Below, in pieces: positions 5,222-24,475 of a DNA stretch of 64,000 nt (its first letter is position 1; each line of letters opens with the position of its first letter). The translations under genes were made by a program, and so were the position numbers. This stretch comes from Halobacteriales archaeon QH_7_65_31 (GTDB lineage: Archaea; Halobacteriota; Halobacteria; Halobacteriales; Haloarculaceae). The stretch covers positions 1-64,000 of the forward strand of contig PXQU01000013.1 of the NCBI GenBank assembly GCA_003021785.1, given 5' to 3'. A model generated the notes under the pieces. It was given only the letters and a program-made list of their open reading frames with translations, searched no databases and had not been told where the DNA came from.

Positions 5222-6147
5222 TGCGACTCCAGTCGGGGAGCGGCCCGGCCCCGATCGGAGCGCAGACGGGCGTCGCGAACTTCCTCACCGATCTCGGCGT
5301 CCCGCCGTCGATCGCTGACCCGCTCAGTGCAGCGGTCGTCTTCGTCGCCGTCTTCGCGGCGGTGTATCTGCTCGGACGAGTGCTGGTGCAGCCGTTCGCG
5401 GATCGGCTGCTCGACCGCCGCGGGTTCGATGCCCACGCCAAGCGACCGATGAAGAAGCTCGTCAGCGTCGTCGTCGTCTTCGCCGCCGTCGCAGTGGCGT
5501 TCGGACTGGCTGGCTTCGGCAACTTCCTCCAGTCGCTGGCGACGATCGCGGCGGCGGCGACGCTCGCGATCGGCTTCGCGCTACAGGACGTGCTCGCCAA
5601 CTTCGTCGCCGGGCTGTTCATCTACACGGACAAGCCGTTCCGGATCGGCGACTGGATCGAGTGGGACGGAAACCGCGGGATCGTCGAGGACATCTCGCTT
5701 CGCGTCACCCGTGTCCGCACGTTCGACAACGAGCTGTTGACGGTTCCAAACAGCCAGCTCACGGACGGCGTCATCAAAAATCCCGTCGCGAAGAGCAAGC
5801 TCCGACTGAAGTTCGTCTTCGGGATCGACTACGAGGACAATATCGACCGTGCGACGGAGATCATCATCGAGGAAGCCGAGAACCACTCGGAGATTCTGGA
5901 CGATCCCGAAGCGTCCGTTCGACTGACCGAGCTGGCTGACTCCTACGTCGGCCTGCAGTCGCGAATCTGGATCGAACAGCCGTCGCGTGCCGACTTCATC
6001 CGCACGCGCGGCGAGTACATGACGAACGTGAAGCAGGCGTTCGACGACGCCGGGATCTCGATGCCGTATCCACAGCGCGTGGTGTCGGGTCGCGGACAGA
6101 CGGCGGACGCCCTCGCGACCCGTCAGCTGGTGGAGCGCGACGGCTGA
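5221..6147 (+). CDS. MscS-family mechanosensitive ion channel
   Basis: This is a 308-residue small-conductance mechanosensitive channel. Three hydrophobic segments lie near residues 33-57, 77-100 and 105-140. The last is the Gly/Ala-rich pore helix running into IGFALQDVLANFVAGLFI. The MscS beta domain follows (KPFRIGDWIEWDG, then VPNSQL near 180), and a mixed C-terminal domain ends the protein. Such channels release solutes on hypo-osmotic shock, which matters for a halophile. The start overlaps the stop of the YhbY gene. The 7S RNA gene follows on the same strand after about 40 bases. Confidence 0.9.
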   Translation: MRLQSGSGPAPIGAQTGVANFLTDLGVPPSIADPLSAAVVFVAVFAAVYLLGRVLVQPFADRLLDRRGFDAHAKRPMKKLVSVVVVFAAVAVAFGLAGFGNFLQSLATIAAAATLAIGFALQDVLANFVAGLFIYTDKPFRIGDWIEWDGNRGIVEDISLRVTRVRTFDNELLTVPNSQLTDGVIKNPVAKSKLRLKFVFGIDYEDNIDRATEIIIEEAENHSEILDDPEASVRLTELADSYVGLQSRIWIEQPSRADFIRTRGEYMTNVKQAFDDAGISMPYPQRVVSGRGQTADALATRQLVERDG

Positions 6148-6154
6148 CGCTGAA

Positions 6155-6171
6155 CGAAAGGCCCTTATGTG
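6155..6171 (+). promoter_or_regulatory. Probable promoter of the 7S RNA gene
   Basis: A purine-rich BRE-like CGAAAG (6155-6160) followed by a TATA-like CTTATGT (6164-6170) lies about 22 bases before the predicted 5' end of the SRP RNA. This is normal archaeal promoter spacing. The call rests on position and motif only. Confidence 0.5.
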
Positions 6172-6186
6172 CCACTGCGTTTCTAT

Positions 6187-6501
6187 CAGGTGGACTAGGT
6201 TGGGCGGTTAGGCCTCGCTCGATACCTGCAGTATGGTCTTCAGCAGGGACTAAAACTCGGTCGCGTCTGGCCCGCCCAGCGTGGGCCCCGAGAGCCAACG
6301 TCGAAACCTCGTCTCACGAGGGCAGCGGTTCGCGTTCCAGCCTCTGCAGGGAGGCGTGGTCGCGATTGATCACAGGGAATCCGTCAGGTACGGAAGTGAG
6401 CAGCGGGCCTGTGGACAGCTGTCGCCCGTGAGGTCGCGGGGCGGAGGAGGCAATCGGGACTCCCCGCGCTGGAACGGCCAGGCAACGCCGGGGTCCACTT
6501 C
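6187..6501 (+). ncRNA. Signal recognition particle 7S RNA
   Basis: This stretch of about 315 bases between the channel gene and a convergent membrane-protein gene has the archaeal SRP RNA layout. The 5' AGGTGGAC (6188-6195) pairs with GTCCACTT near 6493-6500 to close helix 1. The Alu-domain signature GGGCGGTTAGGCCTCGCTC follows at 6202-6220. The S-domain helix 8 motif GTCAGGTACGGAAG...GAGCAGC is at 6383-6404, where SRP54 binds. The RNA scaffolds SRP19 and SRP54 for cotranslational targeting. Ends are accurate to a few bases. Confidence 0.9.
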
Positions 6502-6522
6502 CTCACCACGACCACCGCCGAG

Positions 6523-6957
6523 TCACAACAGCCCGAGCTTCCGAGCGAACCAGCCACCGCTGGCCGCGACCGCCGCCGTCGCTCCCACGACCAGATAGCG
6601 GTGGTACTCCAGAAACGTCGCCGCGATACCGCGTACGCTACCGAGCGAGCCGACGAGCGAGTCGGGGTTCGGGATGGTGAGCGTCCACACCAGCGCGACG
6701 AGGGTTCCGAACGCGCCGAAGACGAGCCCAGCGCCCGCCGCGACTGCGGGATCGGTTCGGTCCTCGCGGCCGGCCGCGAAGATGACGATCGAGACGAGCG
6801 CGAACAGCCCGGCCACGAGCGGTGTCACCGTCCCCGCACCATAGTACGTTCGCACCGCCGACGCCTCGGGAACGAGGAGATACGGCGCGAGGAGCAGTCC
6901 GAGCACGACCAGTGCGGCCCCGATACCGAGGGTGGGTGGCGTGCGGAGAGAGACCAT
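6523..6957 (-). CDS. Small haloarchaeal four-helix membrane protein
   Basis: This 144-residue integral membrane protein has four hydrophobic segments, near residues 8-30, 43-62, 74-96 and 117-138. Gly/Ala-rich helices and short acidic loops separate them. I recognise it only as a conserved haloarchaeal family (from memory, the DUF7548 group) and see no catalytic motif. It is transcribed toward the 7S RNA gene. The start ATG 6957 is about 80 bases from the divergent gene at 7041. Confidence 0.65.
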   Translation of the reverse strand: MVSLRTPPTLGIGAALVVLGLLLAPYLLVPEASAVRTYYGAGTVTPLVAGLFALVSIVIFAAGREDRTDPAVAAGAGLVFGAFGTLVALVWTLTIPNPDSLVGSLGSVRGIAATFLEYHRYLVVGATAAVAASGGWFARKLGLL

Positions 6958-7040
6958 ATCCGAACTGCGACCGCGCGACAGTTAATCGTGCCGAGAGACG
7001 GAAGGGAAACAGTCAGGTCGCTCGCCCCAGACAGGACGGT

Positions 7041-7331
7041 ATGGTCGGACTCGGAAACGCCGCCAAGAAGATACAGCAGCTCTCTGATCTCGCCGAGAAG
7101 CTCTACGCCCGCGTGACCGAGCTTCGCGAGATGCTCGAAGCGACACAGGAGCAGGTAGACGACACGCACGAGCGCGTGACGCAGCTCGAACGCCAGCTCG
7201 ACGAACAGCGCGCGCTGGTGGACGCCCTCGCGGAAGAGCAGGGGCTCGACCCGGAGATGCTCACGGCGACGGCAGCGATCGAGGAGGCCGAATCCGGGAC
7301 GGAGCCGGACGCGCCGACCGGAGACGAGTAG
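7041..7331 (+). CDS. DUF5798 coiled-coil protein
   Basis: This is a 96-residue soluble protein. Residues 5-75 form a long, charged, heptad-patterned helix (KLYARVTELREMLEATQEQV and onward to LERQLDEQ), followed by an acidic tail. It resembles the haloarchaeal DUF5798 family, which has no known function; the coiled coil suggests a dimer. ATG 7041 is the first plausible start, 84 bases downstream of the divergent gene's ATG. The next gene follows after 47 bases and may be cotranscribed. Confidence 0.65.
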   Translation: MVGLGNAAKKIQQLSDLAEKLYARVTELREMLEATQEQVDDTHERVTQLERQLDEQRALVDALAEEQGLDPEMLTATAAIEEAESGTEPDAPTGDE

Positions 7332-7378
7332 CGACCCGTCACCAGCGAGACTTTCGGCGTCGCGCCACAACGGCGAGC

Positions 7379-8290
7379 ATGCGACTCAGAACCCTCGCGC
7401 TCGGGACCGCCACCGCTATCGGTGGTCTGCTCGCTGGCAATCGGACGCTGCGTGCCGACGGCTTCGAGCCGCCGTTAGATCGCGAGCAGGCCACCTACCG
7501 CTGGCGCGGCTTCGACGTCGCGTACACCGAACGCGGCGATCCCGACGACGACGATCTCGTCCTGTTGCACGGGATGAACGCCGCCGGCTCCTCACACGAG
7601 TTCGTCCACGTCGTCGAGACGCTGGCCGAGGAGTACCACGTCATCGCGCCGGATCTCCCCGGCTTCGGCGGCTCGCAGCGGCCACCGCTGTTGTACTCCG
7701 GCTCGCTGTACACCGCCTTCGTCACCGACTTCCTGCGCGAGCAGAGCGAGCGCCCGGTCGTCGTCGCCTCCTCGCTCACGGCGGCGTACGCGACCCGCGC
7801 GGCGAGCGAGCTGTCCGTCGCGGAGCTCGTCTTAGTCTGTCCGACGGCGACGACGATCCCCGGTGAACATCCGTTCGTGCGGTCGCTGCTCCGGTCGCCC
7901 GTGCTCGGTGAGGGGCTGTACAACCTGCTCACGTCGAAGCCCTCGATTCGCTGGTTCCTCGCCGACCACGGTTTCTCCGACGCCGAGACCGTGACCAACG
8001 AGTGGGTGGAGTACGACTGGCAGACGGCCCATCAGCCGAACGCGCGGTTCGCACCGGCGTCGTTCGTTGCCGGCTTCCTCGACAGCGACGCCGATCTCGA
8101 AGCCGAACTCGACACACTCGACGCGCCGGTCGAGATCGTCTGGGGGAGCGAGGCGGAGATGCCCGACCCTGAGGTTGGACGGGAGCTGGCAGACGCTGCC
8201 GGCGCGTCGTTCACGAGCATCGAGGGGACGGATCTCCTTCCGCACGCGGAGCGGCCGACGGCGTTTCTGGAGGCGTTCGAGTCGCGTTAG
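7379..8290 (+). CDS. Alpha/beta-fold hydrolase
   Basis: This is a 303-residue alpha/beta hydrolase. The oxyanion-side motif LLHGMNAAGSS is near residue 62, and DLPGFGGS follows near 95. The nucleophile elbow reads VVASSLTAA near residue 125 instead of the usual G-x-S-x-G. The likely acid lies near VWGSEAEMPD and the histidine in LLPHAERP near 285. It starts with a short hydrophobic segment (LALGTATAIGGLLAG) that could be a membrane anchor. Substrate is unknown. Its stop overlaps the end of the convergent idi gene by four bases. Confidence 0.8.
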   Translation: MRLRTLALGTATAIGGLLAGNRTLRADGFEPPLDREQATYRWRGFDVAYTERGDPDDDDLVLLHGMNAAGSSHEFVHVVETLAEEYHVIAPDLPGFGGSQRPPLLYSGSLYTAFVTDFLREQSERPVVVASSLTAAYATRAASELSVAELVLVCPTATTIPGEHPFVRSLLRSPVLGEGLYNLLTSKPSIRWFLADHGFSDAETVTNEWVEYDWQTAHQPNARFAPASFVAGFLDSDADLEAELDTLDAPVEIVWGSEAEMPDPEVGRELADAAGASFTSIEGTDLLPHAERPTAFLEAFESR

Positions 8291-17641: not shown

Positions 17642-18127
17642 TCACGCCTCGGTGAAGAACGGGGCCGGCTGGTCGTGCCGGAAGTGGACGAACTCCTCGG
17701 CGAGACTCCGGATATGCGTCCGGAGCACGCCGTCCTCGGTCGCGAGCGTCCGGAGCGTGTCCTCGCCCTCCTCGTCGAAGTAGAGCGGACAGCAGATCGC
17801 GCGCTCGGCTGCCGCCGATTCGAGCACGAGCAACAGGAACGTCACGTCCGTGTCGCTGCGATACACCTGATGGTCCGGAAAGGAGGTCCCGTCGGTCCAG
17901 TCGCGCAACCGGTCGAACTCGCCGTCGGGGACGAGCACGTCGAACCCGCGATTGCTCTCGGTGACGACGGTCACGTCGCCGGGGTGGAGTTCGAGTACGT
18001 CCCAGCCGGCCGCCCGGAACTCGTCGGCCGTCGTCTCCATATCGGCGACGAGCGACTCCCAGTGGCGTCGAAGCGCCGTACCGATGTCGTCGCTCGCGAA
18101 CGGCGGAACAGCGGCTTCGTCCGTCAT
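17642..18127 (-). CDS. Conserved haloarchaeal protein, function unknown
   Basis: This is a 161-residue soluble acidic protein. The N-terminal half is helical and contains W22-ESLVADMETTADEFRAAGW, followed by a beta-rich segment (VLELHPGDVTVV, then FDVLVPDGEF) and a C-terminal helical part. I see no nucleotide-binding motif, membrane segment or metal site. I recall similar haloarchaeal proteins (possibly DUF7529) with no known function. It lies between carB and the peptide transporter operon and has its own start, ATG 18127. Confidence 0.6.
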   Translation of the reverse strand: MTDEAAVPPFASDDIGTALRRHWESLVADMETTADEFRAAGWDVLELHPGDVTVVTESNRGFDVLVPDGEFDRLRDWTDGTSFPDHQVYRSDTDVTFLLLVLESAAAERAICCPLYFDEEGEDTLRTLATEDGVLRTHIRSLAEEFVHFRHDQPAPFFTEA

Positions 18128-18169: not shown

Positions 18170-19232
<1,063 letters not shown>

Positions 19233-19240
<8 letters not shown>

Positions 19241-20402
19241 CGGAACCCTCCTCGAAGTAGTCGTCTGGCAGTGCGGTCGCGGGATCGTAGGCGTCGTCCG
19301 CGAGGACACACCGCGCCGCGTGCTCGGGGTCGTCACAGCTCCGCTCCGTCTGCGGGTCGAGACAGGCCTCCATCGCCTTCGGACAGCGGTCGGCGAAGTA
19401 ACCCCGGTCGCCCATCTCGTCCGCGCGGAGGCTGGGAACGTTCCCCTCGATCGGCTGGAGCCGCGGTCGCGGGTCGTCGAGATCGGGGATCGATCCGATG
19501 AGCCCCTGCGTGTACGGGTGAACCGGGTCGTCGAATACGTCACCCAGCGTGCCTCGCTCGACGATCTCTCCGGCGTACATCACGGCGACGCGGTCGCACA
19601 TCCGCGCGATGACGCCCAGATCGTGCGTGATGAGCACGACCGACATGTCGCGGTCGGCCTGTATCTCACGGAGCAGTTCGAGGATCTGTGCTTGGATCGT
19701 CACGTCGAGGGCGGTCGTCGGCTCGTCGGCGATGAGCACGTCCGGCTCACCGGCGAGCGCCTGTGCGATCATCGCGCGCTGTAACATGCCACCGGAGAAC
19801 TCGTGTGGATACTCCCGTGCACGCTCGTCCGGGTCCGGAATGCCGACCTGTTCGAGCAGCTCGACCGCCCGCTCGTGGCTCGCATCGTCGGTGTACGCGC
19901 GGCCGGGAACGATCCCGTCGAGCAGATAGGAGCCGAGCCCGTAGCCGTCGGTTCGCGAGCGGGTCGAGCGTGGCGTCGCACTCGCGCGCCGCTGGACCTC
20001 GACCGCCTCGGCGATCTGTTCGCCGACGGTGAGCGAGGGGTTGAAGCTACTCATCGGGTCCTGAAAGATAGTCGAAAACGTCGGCCCGCGGAGCGACCGC
20101 CGGGTCCGGTCGGGAAGCTCCCGCAGATCGACGAATTCACCGTCCTCGTGTGCGGCCTCCGGGTACGACTCCGCGAGCGGCGGGTTTCGGAGCCACAGCT
20201 GGCCGGCCGTCACCTCACCGGGGGAGTCGACGAGATCGATGAGCGACAGCGCCGTCACCGATTTGCCGGAGCCGGACTCGCCGACGATACCGAGGATCTC
20301 GCCCGCTCGCACGTCGAAGCTCACCGACTCGACGGCGTTCACCTGCGCGTCGCTGGTGAAGAACCGCGTCGAAAGCCCCTCGACACGGAGGATATCCTCC
20401 AT
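19233..20402 (-). CDS. Oligopeptide ABC transporter ATP-binding protein, OppD type
   Basis: This 389-residue ATPase has Walker A GESGSGKS near residue 40, the signature [15 protein letters not shown] near 195, and Walker B VLIADEP. The C-terminal domain has a four-cysteine cluster ([11 protein letters not shown], then [11 protein letters not shown]), a site that binds an Fe-S cluster in some Dpp/Opp ATPases. It pairs with the OppF-type ATPase. A linker of about 30 residues between Q-loop and signature (residues 135-165) is longer than usual. Its ATG shares a base with the permease stop (TGATG). Confidence 0.92.
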
Positions 20403-21511
20403 CAGACGCCACCTCCTTCGCCCTCGATGCTGGGATCGAGGGCGTCACGGAGCCAGTCACCGACGAGATTCACGCCGATGACCGTGATCACGATTGCGAG
20501 CCCGGGCATCGCCGCGATCCACCACGCCGTCGTCTGGTACTCGCGACCGGCGGCGATGTCGAAGCCCCACGAGAGGTTCGCCCCCGAGAAGCCGAGGAAC
20601 GACAGGGAGCTTTCCAGCAGGATGATGGCCGCGATCTGGATCGTCGCGAGCACGAGGATCGGCGTCACGCTGTTCGGGAGGATATGTCTGCGGATGACGT
20701 ACCGGTTCGATCCACCCAGCGCCTTCGAGGCCGTGACGTACTCCTCCTCGCTGACGCCGAGCGCCTCACCTCTGGCGACGCGGGCGAACCAGACCCAGTT
20801 CACGATTCCGACGACAAGGATGACCGTCCCCGGGAGGGCAAACGTCTCGGGCATCCCCGGCGGGTAACTCAACCCACCGGGAAGCGAGACGAGTCCCCGA
20901 AGGAACTCCGAAAGCCCGCTGGTGACGAACGGGTCCGGGACGTTCACCGTCGCCTGTCCGAAGAGGCCGACCAGCGCGATCGCCAGAACGAGCGAGGGGA
21001 ACGCGAGACTCACGTCCGCGATCCGCATCAGTGCGTCGTCGACGCGTCCCTTGTAGTAGCCGGAGATCAGCCCGATCGGCACGCCGATCGCCATCGCGAG
21101 CACCGTCCCGAGCACGCCGACGAGCAGGGAGGTGCGCGCGCCGTAGATAACGCGGGAGAGCATATCCTGTCCGAGCGCATCGGTCCCGAGCGGATGCGCC
21201 ACCGTCGCGTCGATGTACTCCGTCTCCTCGACGATCTGTACCTCGCCGTCGACCATCTCCTGTGACACCTGCGTCTCGGCGCGGCTGAAGCCGAGCGGCG
21301 GCTGCTGTTTGTCGTCGAGCGTCTGTGCGGTCGGGTTCCACGGCGCGATCAGGGGGGCGAACACCGCAGACACCAGCACGACGATCAGGATACCGACACC
21401 GAGCTTCGCGAGGAGACTCGAGTCGAGCTCCGAGCGCAGATTCCGTCTCGTTCGCGGTGAGACACGATCGGTGAGCCACTCGTACAGCGAACGCGGATCG
21501 AACGGAGCCAT
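20402..21511 (-). CDS. Oligopeptide ABC transporter permease, OppC type
   Basis: This 369-residue inner-membrane permease has a long N-terminal cytosolic stretch and a first helix near residue 35. A loop of about 60 residues (residues 55-110) follows. The transporter core of five helices comes after the typical DALGQDMLSRVIYGARTSL segment. The EAA coupling loop is near residue 240 (REALGVSEEEYVTASKALGG). It forms the pore with the OppB-type permease. It lies two bases after that gene and overlaps the next start. Confidence 0.92.
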   Translation of the reverse strand: MAPFDPRSLYEWLTDRVSPRTRRNLRSELDSSLLAKLGVGILIVVLVSAVFAPLIAPWNPTAQTLDDKQQPPLGFSRAETQVSQEMVDGEVQIVEETEYIDATVAHPLGTDALGQDMLSRVIYGARTSLLVGVLGTVLAMAIGVPIGLISGYYKGRVDDALMRIADVSLAFPSLVLAIALVGLFGQATVNVPDPFVTSGLSEFLRGLVSLPGGLSYPPGMPETFALPGTVILVVGIVNWVWFARVARGEALGVSEEEYVTASKALGGSNRYVIRRHILPNSVTPILVLATIQIAAIILLESSLSFLGFSGANLSWGFDIAAGREYQTTAWWIAAMPGLAIVITVIGVNLVGDWLRDALDPSIEGEGGGV

Positions 21512-22565: not shown

Positions 22566-24176
22566 TTAGTTCTGACTCCCCATGCTCTGGGCCTGCTCGA
22601 CGAGCTCGTCGACACGATCGTCCTCGTACGAGGTGAGCGACCCGTCGGAGGTGAGCGTCGGGATGATCGTCTGGCTGGCGTCGAACGTCGCGTTCCCCCA
22701 TCCGATGAGATAGAAGTCGGGTCCCGTCGTGATGTCGCCGTCGACGAGATCATTCGCCAGCGAGCCGAAGTCGCGCTGCTTCACGCTCGCCGAGACGTTC
22801 GAGAGATCGTCGAGGAACCCGACGACCGCCTGTGCGATTTCGAGGTCCTGCAGATACCGCCCGACCGGCGTGTGAAGCGTTATCTCTGCGCCCGCGTAGC
22901 CGCTCTCCTCGACGAGCTGCTCGGCGCGCTCTACGTCGTACTCGTACGGGTCGACGTCGCCGTTGTAGCCGAAGAACCCTTCGACCGTCGGCTGACTGAT
23001 CGCAGCACCGAACGACGAGAGCACATTCTCGATGATGCTCTCCATGTCGACCGCGTGGTTCATCGCCTGTCGGAACTCCACAGAGTCGAACGGCTCGCGG
23101 TCGTACATCATTCCGTTGTAGAGGACGCGCGTGCTCGGGACCGCAGAGATCTCCGTATCCTCCGAGTTCCGCACCTCGGAGACGCTCTGTGGCGGGACGT
23201 TCACCGCGATATCGGTCTCGCCGGTGAGCAGCTGGTTCACTCGCGTGCTCGACTCGGGCGCGCCCTTGATGACGAGGGAGTCCGCCGCCGGCGCGTCCCC
23301 GTAGTAGTCGTCGTAGCTCGTGAAGACGACCTCTACGTCCTGCTCGTACGTGTCGAGCATGAACGGCCCGGTCCCGTTCATATTGGTGTTGATGTACGCC
23401 CGCTCGTTGCTCGTGATCCACGACTTGTTCACGATATCACAGTAGGTCGCGAAGCTGGCGAAGACGATCGGGTTGATACCGTCTGAGTTGACCCGGACCG
23501 CGCTGTTTCCGTCGACGACCTCCGCGCCGGTGACGCCCGGAAGCTGATCAGCCTGTGGACTGGTAATGCCGACGTCGTCCTGTACCATCCGGTTGATCGA
23601 GAAGGCGACGTCCTCTTTCGTCATCGAGTCGCCGGTGTGGAACGACACGCCCGAACGGAGACCGAACTCGACGACGCCCGGCTCGATGCGCTCGTAGCTG
23701 CTCGCGAGCTGTTTGGTGACCCGTCCCTCGCGATCGCGAGTGAGCAGCCCCTCGTACGCCTGCAGGACGATGTTATCGGTCGTCGTCTCGCGGTGGTCGT
23801 GCGGGTCGAGCCCAGTACCGAGCCCGGACTGCGTGATCGTGACCGTGGACTTCGATCCCAGCGGCTCGATAGCGTCGCCGTCGATACGCTCGTCTCGGCG
23901 CGCCTCCCACTCGACATCGGTCGACTTCCCGTAGACGCTGTACTGCCGGTTGAGGTAGATCCACGGCGCGTCTTGATTGAGTAGCAGATTCGCCCGCTGA
24001 AGGTAGTCGTCGCGCGTCTCCGGCTCGGGGAGCGACTCCTCGGCGTCCGTCGACGTGCCGCCGTCTCCAGAGTCGTTCGGCTCGGTTCCACCGTCGCTAC
24101 AGCCGGCGAGCGCCGCAGTGCCGGCGACGCTCCCGGCGAGCGTGAGGAACGTACGTCTATCTGTCTCTCGTGACAT
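22566..24176 (-). CDS. Oligopeptide-binding lipoprotein (SBP family 5), apparently permuted
   Basis: This 536-residue substrate-binding protein is the first gene of the transporter operon. A Tat-type twin-arginine signal (DRRTFLTLAG) and a lipobox ending at Cys26 (ALAGC) anchor it outside the membrane. Residues 53-102 (YLQRANLLLNQDAPWIYL, then VYGKSTDVEW and RRDERI) look like the C-terminal strand-helix segment of family 5 proteins. The normal N-terminal core starts only at about 109 (TITQSGLGTGLDPHD). The chain then ends at VDELVEQAQSMG, where that segment would normally follow. This suggests circular permutation. The ligand is inferred from family. Confidence 0.85.
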   Translation of the reverse strand: MSRETDRRTFLTLAGSVAGTAALAGCSDGGTEPNDSGDGGTSTDAEESLPEPETRDDYLQRANLLLNQDAPWIYLNRQYSVYGKSTDVEWEARRDERIDGDAIEPLGSKSTVTITQSGLGTGLDPHDHRETTTDNIVLQAYEGLLTRDREGRVTKQLASSYERIEPGVVEFGLRSGVSFHTGDSMTKEDVAFSINRMVQDDVGITSPQADQLPGVTGAEVVDGNSAVRVNSDGINPIVFASFATYCDIVNKSWITSNERAYINTNMNGTGPFMLDTYEQDVEVVFTSYDDYYGDAPAADSLVIKGAPESSTRVNQLLTGETDIAVNVPPQSVSEVRNSEDTEISAVPSTRVLYNGMMYDREPFDSVEFRQAMNHAVDMESIIENVLSSFGAAISQPTVEGFFGYNGDVDPYEYDVERAEQLVEESGYAGAEITLHTPVGRYLQDLEIAQAVVGFLDDLSNVSASVKQRDFGSLANDLVDGDITTGPDFYLIGWGNATFDASQTIIPTLTSDGSLTSYEDDRVDELVEQAQSMGSQN

Positions 24177-24244: not shown

Positions 24245-24475
24245 CTACGACGAGTCGGTGTCGAGTCGGTAGCGATAGGGGTGTCCGCGGATGATTTCCA
24301 CGTCGTCTTCGTCCGCGCGTCGACCGAGCACCGTCGCAACCCGGTGGGGACTATCGAAGGACGCGCCGTGCTCGTCGAGAAGCGCGTGTAGCTCCTTCGC
24401 CGTCAGCGGCTCGTCGACGCCAGCTCGTTCGACGATACGGCGTATCTGCTCGAACTCACCCCGGCGTATGCGCAT
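24245..24475 (-). CDS. Small winged-helix-like protein upstream of the transporter
   Basis: This is a 76-residue basic protein of the form MRIRRGEFEQIRRIVERAG, then EPLTAKELHALLDEHG and VATVLGRRADEDDVEII. The pattern of helix, helix-turn-helix and a terminal hairpin (HPYRYRL) fits a minimal winged helix, but I do not recognise the family. It lies 68 bases before the transporter operon on the same strand and has its own promoter: TATA-like GATATAAG near 24500, reverse strand. Two copies of a GTCAGACAG motif flank that TATA box. A role as local regulator is inference. Confidence 0.6.
   Translation of the reverse strand: MRIRRGEFEQIRRIVERAGVDEPLTAKELHALLDEHGASFDSPHRVATVLGRRADEDDVEIIRGHPYRYRLDTDSS

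Follow-up and report, generated by a model that had tools for sequence, protein, structure and literature searches.

For many natural circular permutants, the only known examples are pairs of proteins whose divergence makes the event hard to trace. Among the binding proteins of ABC importers, the closest precedent for the protein described here lies in another cluster of solute-binding proteins (SBPs): TpMglB-2 (Tp0684), a circularly permuted glucose-binding lipoprotein for which a cluster Bc, or Type Ic, was proposed (PMC4990184). According to the available text, TpMglB-2 binds its ligand and changes shape, the first three strands of its N-lobe stand near the C-terminus, and its authors name membrane tethering as a possible driver of the permutation (PMC4990184).

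The protein studied here is encoded in a 64,000-nucleotide stretch of the genome of Halobacteriales archaeon QH_7_65_31 (the window; contig PXQU01000013.1). Judged by its sequence, the window protein belongs to a DppABCDF-type ABC importer, as a family-5 solute-binding lipoprotein that has been circularly permuted in nature. It shares with TpMglB-2 the permuted order and the role of a tethered importer binding protein, as far as the text on the latter goes (PMC4990184), but TpMglB-2 belongs to the sugar-binding SBP cluster B; with its family-5 profile and a different cut, the window protein falls outside cluster Bc. Canonical family-5 proteins (DppA, OppA, NikA, AccA; PF00496) have the same core domain and an operon with two permeases and two ATPases, but their terminal segment is C-terminal, whereas in the window protein this helix–strand segment is N-terminal, at residues 53–103, which makes it a permuted variant of the canonical SBP_bac_5 order. 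Canonical haloarchaeal relatives (Haloferax, Halogranum, Halorussus, Halovenus) resemble it in operon, tether length, the segment itself and the core, which is 51–61% identical in blastp where the match is the core only; they differ in carrying the segment at the C-terminus. As in a natural permutant, one relative carries homologues of both parts of the window protein, with their order swapped and neither duplicated. No natural permutation of a family-5 SBP was found among the matches listed for titles and abstract openings of the open-licence literature.

The account of TpMglB-2, in its available text, contains no comparison of permuted and canonical orthologues from one operon (PMC4990184). 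Here, permuted and canonical relatives have their operon in common, tethers of similar length and at least half of their core residues. This, and an order that seems to have switched at least twice, opens the event to direct study, together with its breakpoints and its effect. Since both forms have a lipobox and a tether, tethering alone does not demand permutation, a point that bears on the driver named for TpMglB-2. For engineers, the family shows where evolution has tolerated a cut in a family-5 binding protein; more broadly, it represents a natural experiment, apparently run at least twice, on where binding proteins can be cut and tethered.

Gene, domain order and operon

The 536-residue open reading frame at 22566-24176 (-) is a real gene for a dppA-type binding protein. 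The Pfam profile PF00496 (SBP_bac_5) matched residues 153–512 with an E-value of 7.6e-60 and 203.4 bits, against a curated cut-off of 32.4. The features of the gene and its operon are listed below.

24099..24176 (-): residues 1–26, a signal peptide bearing a lipobox and a twin-arginine-like motif, Cys26 being the predicted lipid anchor (sequence)
24027..24098 (-): acidic low-complexity tether, residues 27–50 (sequence)
23868..24020 (-): moved segment, residues 53–103, homologous to the C-terminus of canonical orthologues (blastp, segment profile, model)
within 23868..24020 (-): helix 55–69 and long strand 73–85 of the moved segment (model, secondary-structure comparison)
23844..23867 (-): short joint from the former C-terminus to the former N-terminus, residues 104–111 by pairwise alignment
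22587..23843 (-): family-5 solute-binding core, residues 112–530 (PF00496 and alignment to the canonical relative L028)
22566..22586 (-): stop codon and, before it, the new C-terminus (final residues of AQSMGSQN), in the former core–segment loop
21513..22535 (-): dppB-type permease, same operon (PF00528)
20402..21511 (-): dppC-type permease (PF00528, PF12911)
19233..20402 (-): dppD-type ATPase (PF00005, PF08352)
18170..19222 (-): dppF-type ATPase, gene start approximate (PF00005, PF08352)
17642-18127 (-): DUF7529 gene beside the operon (Pfam)

The lipobox, LAGC, occupies residues 23–26 and marks the product as a predicted lipoprotein; a lipobox-like pattern is present in all 54 permuted proteins of the comparison set described below. 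The twin arginine is present, with the Pfam TAT_signal profile remaining below threshold (14.1 bits, cut-off 22.7). The tether between the cysteine and the domain has a median length of 35 residues in the 54 permuted proteins versus 36 in 57 canonical ones (Mann–Whitney p 0.14), five further canonical proteins having no lipobox by the pattern used.

The core of the window protein is 59% identical to that of the canonical L028 over 424 aligned positions. The chain ends with VDELVEQAQSMGSQN, within the loop that joins core and segment in canonical proteins and that measures 4–7 residues in 62 of them. At the other junction, 8–13 residues lie between the profile ends of segment and core in the 54 permuted proteins, and this joint opens with the canonical C-terminal tail: canonical L171 ends in AYAIEPAQ, and in permuted L139 the first core strand is preceded by AYAIEPANDDGDD. 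Almost nothing was thus lost from the old ends when they were fused, and a single loop holds the new ends.

An earlier note on this DNA, made from the letters alone, had described a C-terminal-type segment between the lipobox and the core, a chain that stops where the segment should continue, and what looked like a true circular permutation between domain ends lying close in the fold. The first two points agree with blastp and profile searches, in which canonical orthologues carry the same segment terminally, and with the position of the chain end in the short core–segment loop. The placement between lipobox and core stands, with the boundaries slightly shifted: the segment aligns at 53–103, not 53–102, and the core runs from about residue 112. 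The order, the boundaries and the single copy fit a permutation of the mature domain that left the signal peptide where it was, and with so short a joint the two domain ends should lie close in the fold.

The start of dppB is 30 bases past the dppA stop, and the operon encodes BPD_transp_1 permeases and ABC ATPases with oligo_HPY tails, as in SBP_bac_5 systems. By family and operon, as in Dpp/Opp systems, peptides are the likely ligand, and the nutrient captured by the window protein is probably peptides. Matches to dppB and dppC stand behind dppA in all 56 loci long enough, of both orders; dppD follows in 55 of the 56, the remaining locus ending before it, and a separate dppF lies downstream in 47, with nine loci showing no separate downstream copy. 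Beyond the DUF7529 gene, downstream of the operon, the large chain of carbamoyl-phosphate synthase is encoded. DUF7529 matches also occur next to some dppABCDF operons, permuted and canonical, in some cases upstream and on the opposite strand. Upstream of dppA, a 76-residue open reading frame (24245-24475, (-)) appears helix-turn-helix-like by eye only and has no Pfam match. One locus of the collection, L050, contains two canonical dppA-type genes (1-1048 and 5766-7446) about 4.7 kb apart on one contig, possibly a duplicated operon.

The segment and its position in relatives

Loci for comparison were collected from 84,980 species genomes (53 loci) and, in addition, from 146 family genomes, 132 of which matched. 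When the window protein was aligned by blastp to the open reading frames of 85 loci, most canonical relatives gave two separate hits, the core followed by the segment at the C-terminus. In L025, for example, query residues 112–529 matched subject residues 108–526, and query residues 53–103 matched 532–582 with 53% identity and 63 bits. The segment hit reached 42–67% identity and 46–79 bits across the two-hit canonical relatives, compared with 13% identity between the last 100 residues of TpMglB-2 and the canonical first 100 in the available account. The canonical set comprises Haloferax, Halogranum, Halorussus, Haloarchaeobius, Halovenus and others, while the other relatives align colinearly with the window protein and form the permuted set. 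Four canonical proteins (L047, L049, L050 and L053) gave no second blastp hit; in these the segment profile places a C-terminal copy with 68–76 bits. Among the matches listed, AccA structures also pair residues 48–92 with their C-terminus, at 4.4 bits, non-significant alone.

Core and segment profiles were applied to 120 distinct proteins with a core span of at least 370 residues and at least 450 bits. Of these, 54 were permuted, 64 canonical and 2 unreadable, and none had two copies of the segment, be it as an intermediate or as the C-terminal second copy that the earlier note had named as an argument against permutation. The unreadable pair, L042 and L081, was considered as a case of segment-less proteins and rejected as such: L042 carries the segment in another frame after a frameshift, and L081 is broken inside it. 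A six-frame profile search of each gene and up to 900 bases on each side, as far as each locus reaches, found exactly one segment copy in 95 of 101 genes and zero matches in 6, with no second copy or decayed remnant near any of the 101. The segment evolves under purifying selection, with dN/dS of 0.03–0.37 in 12 permuted pairs (core, 0.06–0.27) and 0.03–0.39 in 8 canonical pairs, the segment values being point estimates from 47–51 codons.

To describe the distribution, residues 48–160 were searched in 392 genomes of the order, 213 of which matched in some way. In 39 of the 392 (own genome included; by a count of the match listing), one unbroken match spans the segment and the start of the core, i.e., the permuted order. 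Complete chromosomes with this order are those of Halosimplex pelagicum (L005), H. aquaticum (L008) and Halorarius halobius (L006). A sample of the phylum gave matches in 24 of 294 genomes, all from this order, to which many of the unmatched genomes may belong as well. A single plasmid record out of 72,556 matched, with 42% of the query covered and the segment part only.

These data also bear on whether an assembly or annotation artefact explains the swapped order, a concern that the earlier note had raised together with a look at other haloarchaea. The source genome is a 16-contig assembly, 90.6% complete, which gives this reading some ground; against it stand the same order in 38 other genomes of the 392 and in complete chromosomes, and the purifying selection on the segment. 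We rejected the artefact as vanishingly improbable. The permuted order occurs in several haloarchaeal genera, in complete genomes and in almost half of the distinct relatives (54/120).

Two individual loci deserve mention. One genome (L181 / G442) holds a permuted gene (62% identity) and a canonical gene (50%) 0.6 Mb apart on the same contig. The permuted gene of L092 (4610-7418) lies in a 936-residue frame in which the core match ends at residue 599, perhaps through a frameshift in a draft genome.

Predicted fold and possible route

AlphaFold2 models were generated from alignments of 40 sequences for the window protein and 25 for the canonical L028, reaching a mean pLDDT of 72.3 (pTM 0.60) and 71.6 (pTM 0.63), respectively. 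For the successive ten-residue blocks that cover 51 to 100 in the permuted model, pLDDT is 66, 71, 55, 90 and 75. Within the limits of these modest-confidence models, secondary structure is equal in both orders at 96% of the 51 segment positions and at 94% of the 424 core positions. The segment is modeled as a helix, three residues and a 13-residue strand. This strand has no partner strand of at least three residues inside the segment of the permuted model, so, going by the list of elements, it should pair with the core.

Foldseek searches returned family-5 SBPs for the permuted and canonical models alike. With 5u4o, the permuted model gave a TM score by target of 0.60 over 447 columns, and the canonical model 0.76 over 490; for 5u4o, 1uqw and 1dpe alike, the canonical model aligned over more columns and with a higher TM score. 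The shorter sequential alignment of the permuted model is in line with a permutation, with model quality as a possible contributor. Going by the models, the segment most likely docks on the core at the canonical place with the two-lobed fold kept, and the window protein is most likely an ordinary Venus-flytrap lipoprotein tethered via its former C-terminal helix.

Another arrangement would have residues 53–103 act in trans, completing a neighbouring molecule in a domain-swapped dimer or contacting the permease. The position of the segment beside the tether permits swapping, and monomer models are compatible with it; the joint of only 8–13 residues, and a segment equal to the canonical C-terminus in sequence and predicted structure, make this reading very unlikely.

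By sequence, the last ~50 residues of the domain, a helix and a long strand, stand before the core and behind the signal peptide and tether. The old C-terminus is joined to the old N-terminus by the 8–13-residue joint, with the new ends in the 4–7-residue loop. Under the preferred reading, docking in cis, the segment would dock where it always did, preserving two-lobed Venus-flytrap capture, and the membrane tether, which leads to the first core strand in the canonical order, would now attach to the former C-terminal helix.

Known routes to permutation are permutation by duplication and fission–fusion, and, in the available text of their description, they have in common with the present case a new order, a fold that is kept (in the window protein, probably) and an expectation of duplicated intermediates (PMC3320104). 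The window protein differs from them in keeping its signal peptide in front. For this reason, plain tandem duplication with a new start and stop would be insufficient, and with both signal peptide and tether remaining in front, copying of the segment followed by loss of the original is favoured. The 3' segment would have been copied behind the tether to give a two-copy protein, and the original copy would then have been lost via a stop in the core–segment loop.

Number of origins

The 84-row dppA core tree was obtained by dropping 17 of 101 rows as distant or outlying, and the 93-row core tree by removing 5 named rows from 120 and then 22 rows more than 92% identical. The dppBCD tree was built from 95 loci with all three genes, 19 of which were left out as more than 94% identical. 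In the core trees, from which the segment was omitted, permuted proteins fall in two distant places: a large lineage with Halosimplex, Halorarius, Halomarina, Halorubrum, Halobium and the window protein, and a small lineage of L086–L090 and L160.

The dppA core rejected a single clade for all permuted proteins, on 84 rows (p 6.2e-5) as on 93 (p 3.5e-39), and so did the DppB+C+D tree (p 1.3e-44, 76 rows). The all-permuted group was set by the trait, and the division into two lineages was drawn once the first tree was available, which makes the p-values for the parts less strict. As a single clade, the large lineage is not rejected by the core (p 0.52, 0.30 and 0.12) and is rejected by dppBCD (p 0.0008); the small lineage is likewise not rejected by the core (p 0.12 and 0.14) and is rejected by dppBCD (p 0.029). 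A mixed clade uniting the Halobium group and two canonical rows also escapes rejection by the core (p 0.145), and a 33-row clade of the dppBCD tree is rejected by it (p 0.0038), i.e., the histories of dppA and dppBCD conflict. Given this conflict, dppA was probably exchanged between operons, separately from the transporter.

The fewest order changes, gain or loss, amount to 4 on the 93-row core tree and 6 on the dppBCD tree, and well-supported branches force at least 2 (84-row core), 3 (93-row core) and 4 (dppBCD) changes. Without losses, the core tree needs 5 gains and the dppBCD tree 6, corresponding to five and six separate permuted clades. A single gain would have to be followed by 11 losses on the core tree, or by 8 on that of dppBCD.

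The segment itself carries a further record. At its column 47, Asp is found in 5/5 small-lineage permuted proteins and 5/5 of their canonical neighbours, and does not rank among the three commonest residues in any of the three remaining groups. His at column 26 and Gln at column 27 are present in the same 5/5 and 5/5 proteins, and also in a minority of the large lineage. Small-lineage permuted segments have a mean identity of 47% to those of canonical neighbours, against 45% to the permuted segments of the large lineage; the latter are 38% identical to the segments of the small lineage's canonical proteins. With the segment only, the p-value against one permuted clade is borderline, at 0.0505, and a clade of small-lineage permuted and canonical proteins is not rejected (p 0.42). 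Both permuted lineages begin the segment alike, e.g., LPEPETR and LPEDPTR, and a proline at the segment start is also found in 6/7 outgroup canonical proteins. The shared start may reflect a helix cap needed at the new front end, or common descent.

These observations can be weighed against a single ancient permutation, with the canonical order restored repeatedly afterwards and with lateral exchange. Such a history would suit the similar segment starts, a segment identity between the permuted lineages (45%) equal to or above most cross-order values (38–47%), the borderline segment-only rejection and a dppA that is probably mobile between operons, as the conflict between its tree and that of dppBCD suggests. 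It would, however, call for the 11 or 8 losses given above and for a permuted clade that both dppA core and dppBCD reject; moreover, those of the more distant rows in which a segment is recognised have the canonical order, and columns 26, 27 and 47 of the small-lineage segments agree with canonical neighbours. We regard a single origin as rather improbable.

With a single permuted clade rejected by core and dppBCD trees, and many losses otherwise needed, we infer that the permutation arose at least twice, in the same loop, among haloarchaea of this order, and hold this to be likely. The conflict between trees within each lineage would reflect either exchange of dppA or additional origins; two origins are claimed here. 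Taken as a whole, the data are best explained, with good probability, by a permuted family-5 lipoprotein that kept its fold, moved its tether and originated at least twice. The probable recurrence goes beyond what the earlier note had described.

A bolder version is conceivable, and we offer it tentatively: the loop before the last helix–strand unit might be a permutation hot spot, where the order switched four to six times via a short-lived two-copy state, both orders being interchangeable under weak selection on the tether site.

As a minor observation, the window protein's own tail, QSMGSQN, has no proline. Many new ends carry one, in tails such as QSLPGEN, RTIPE and NQTPEE and in the segment starts of both lineages quoted above.
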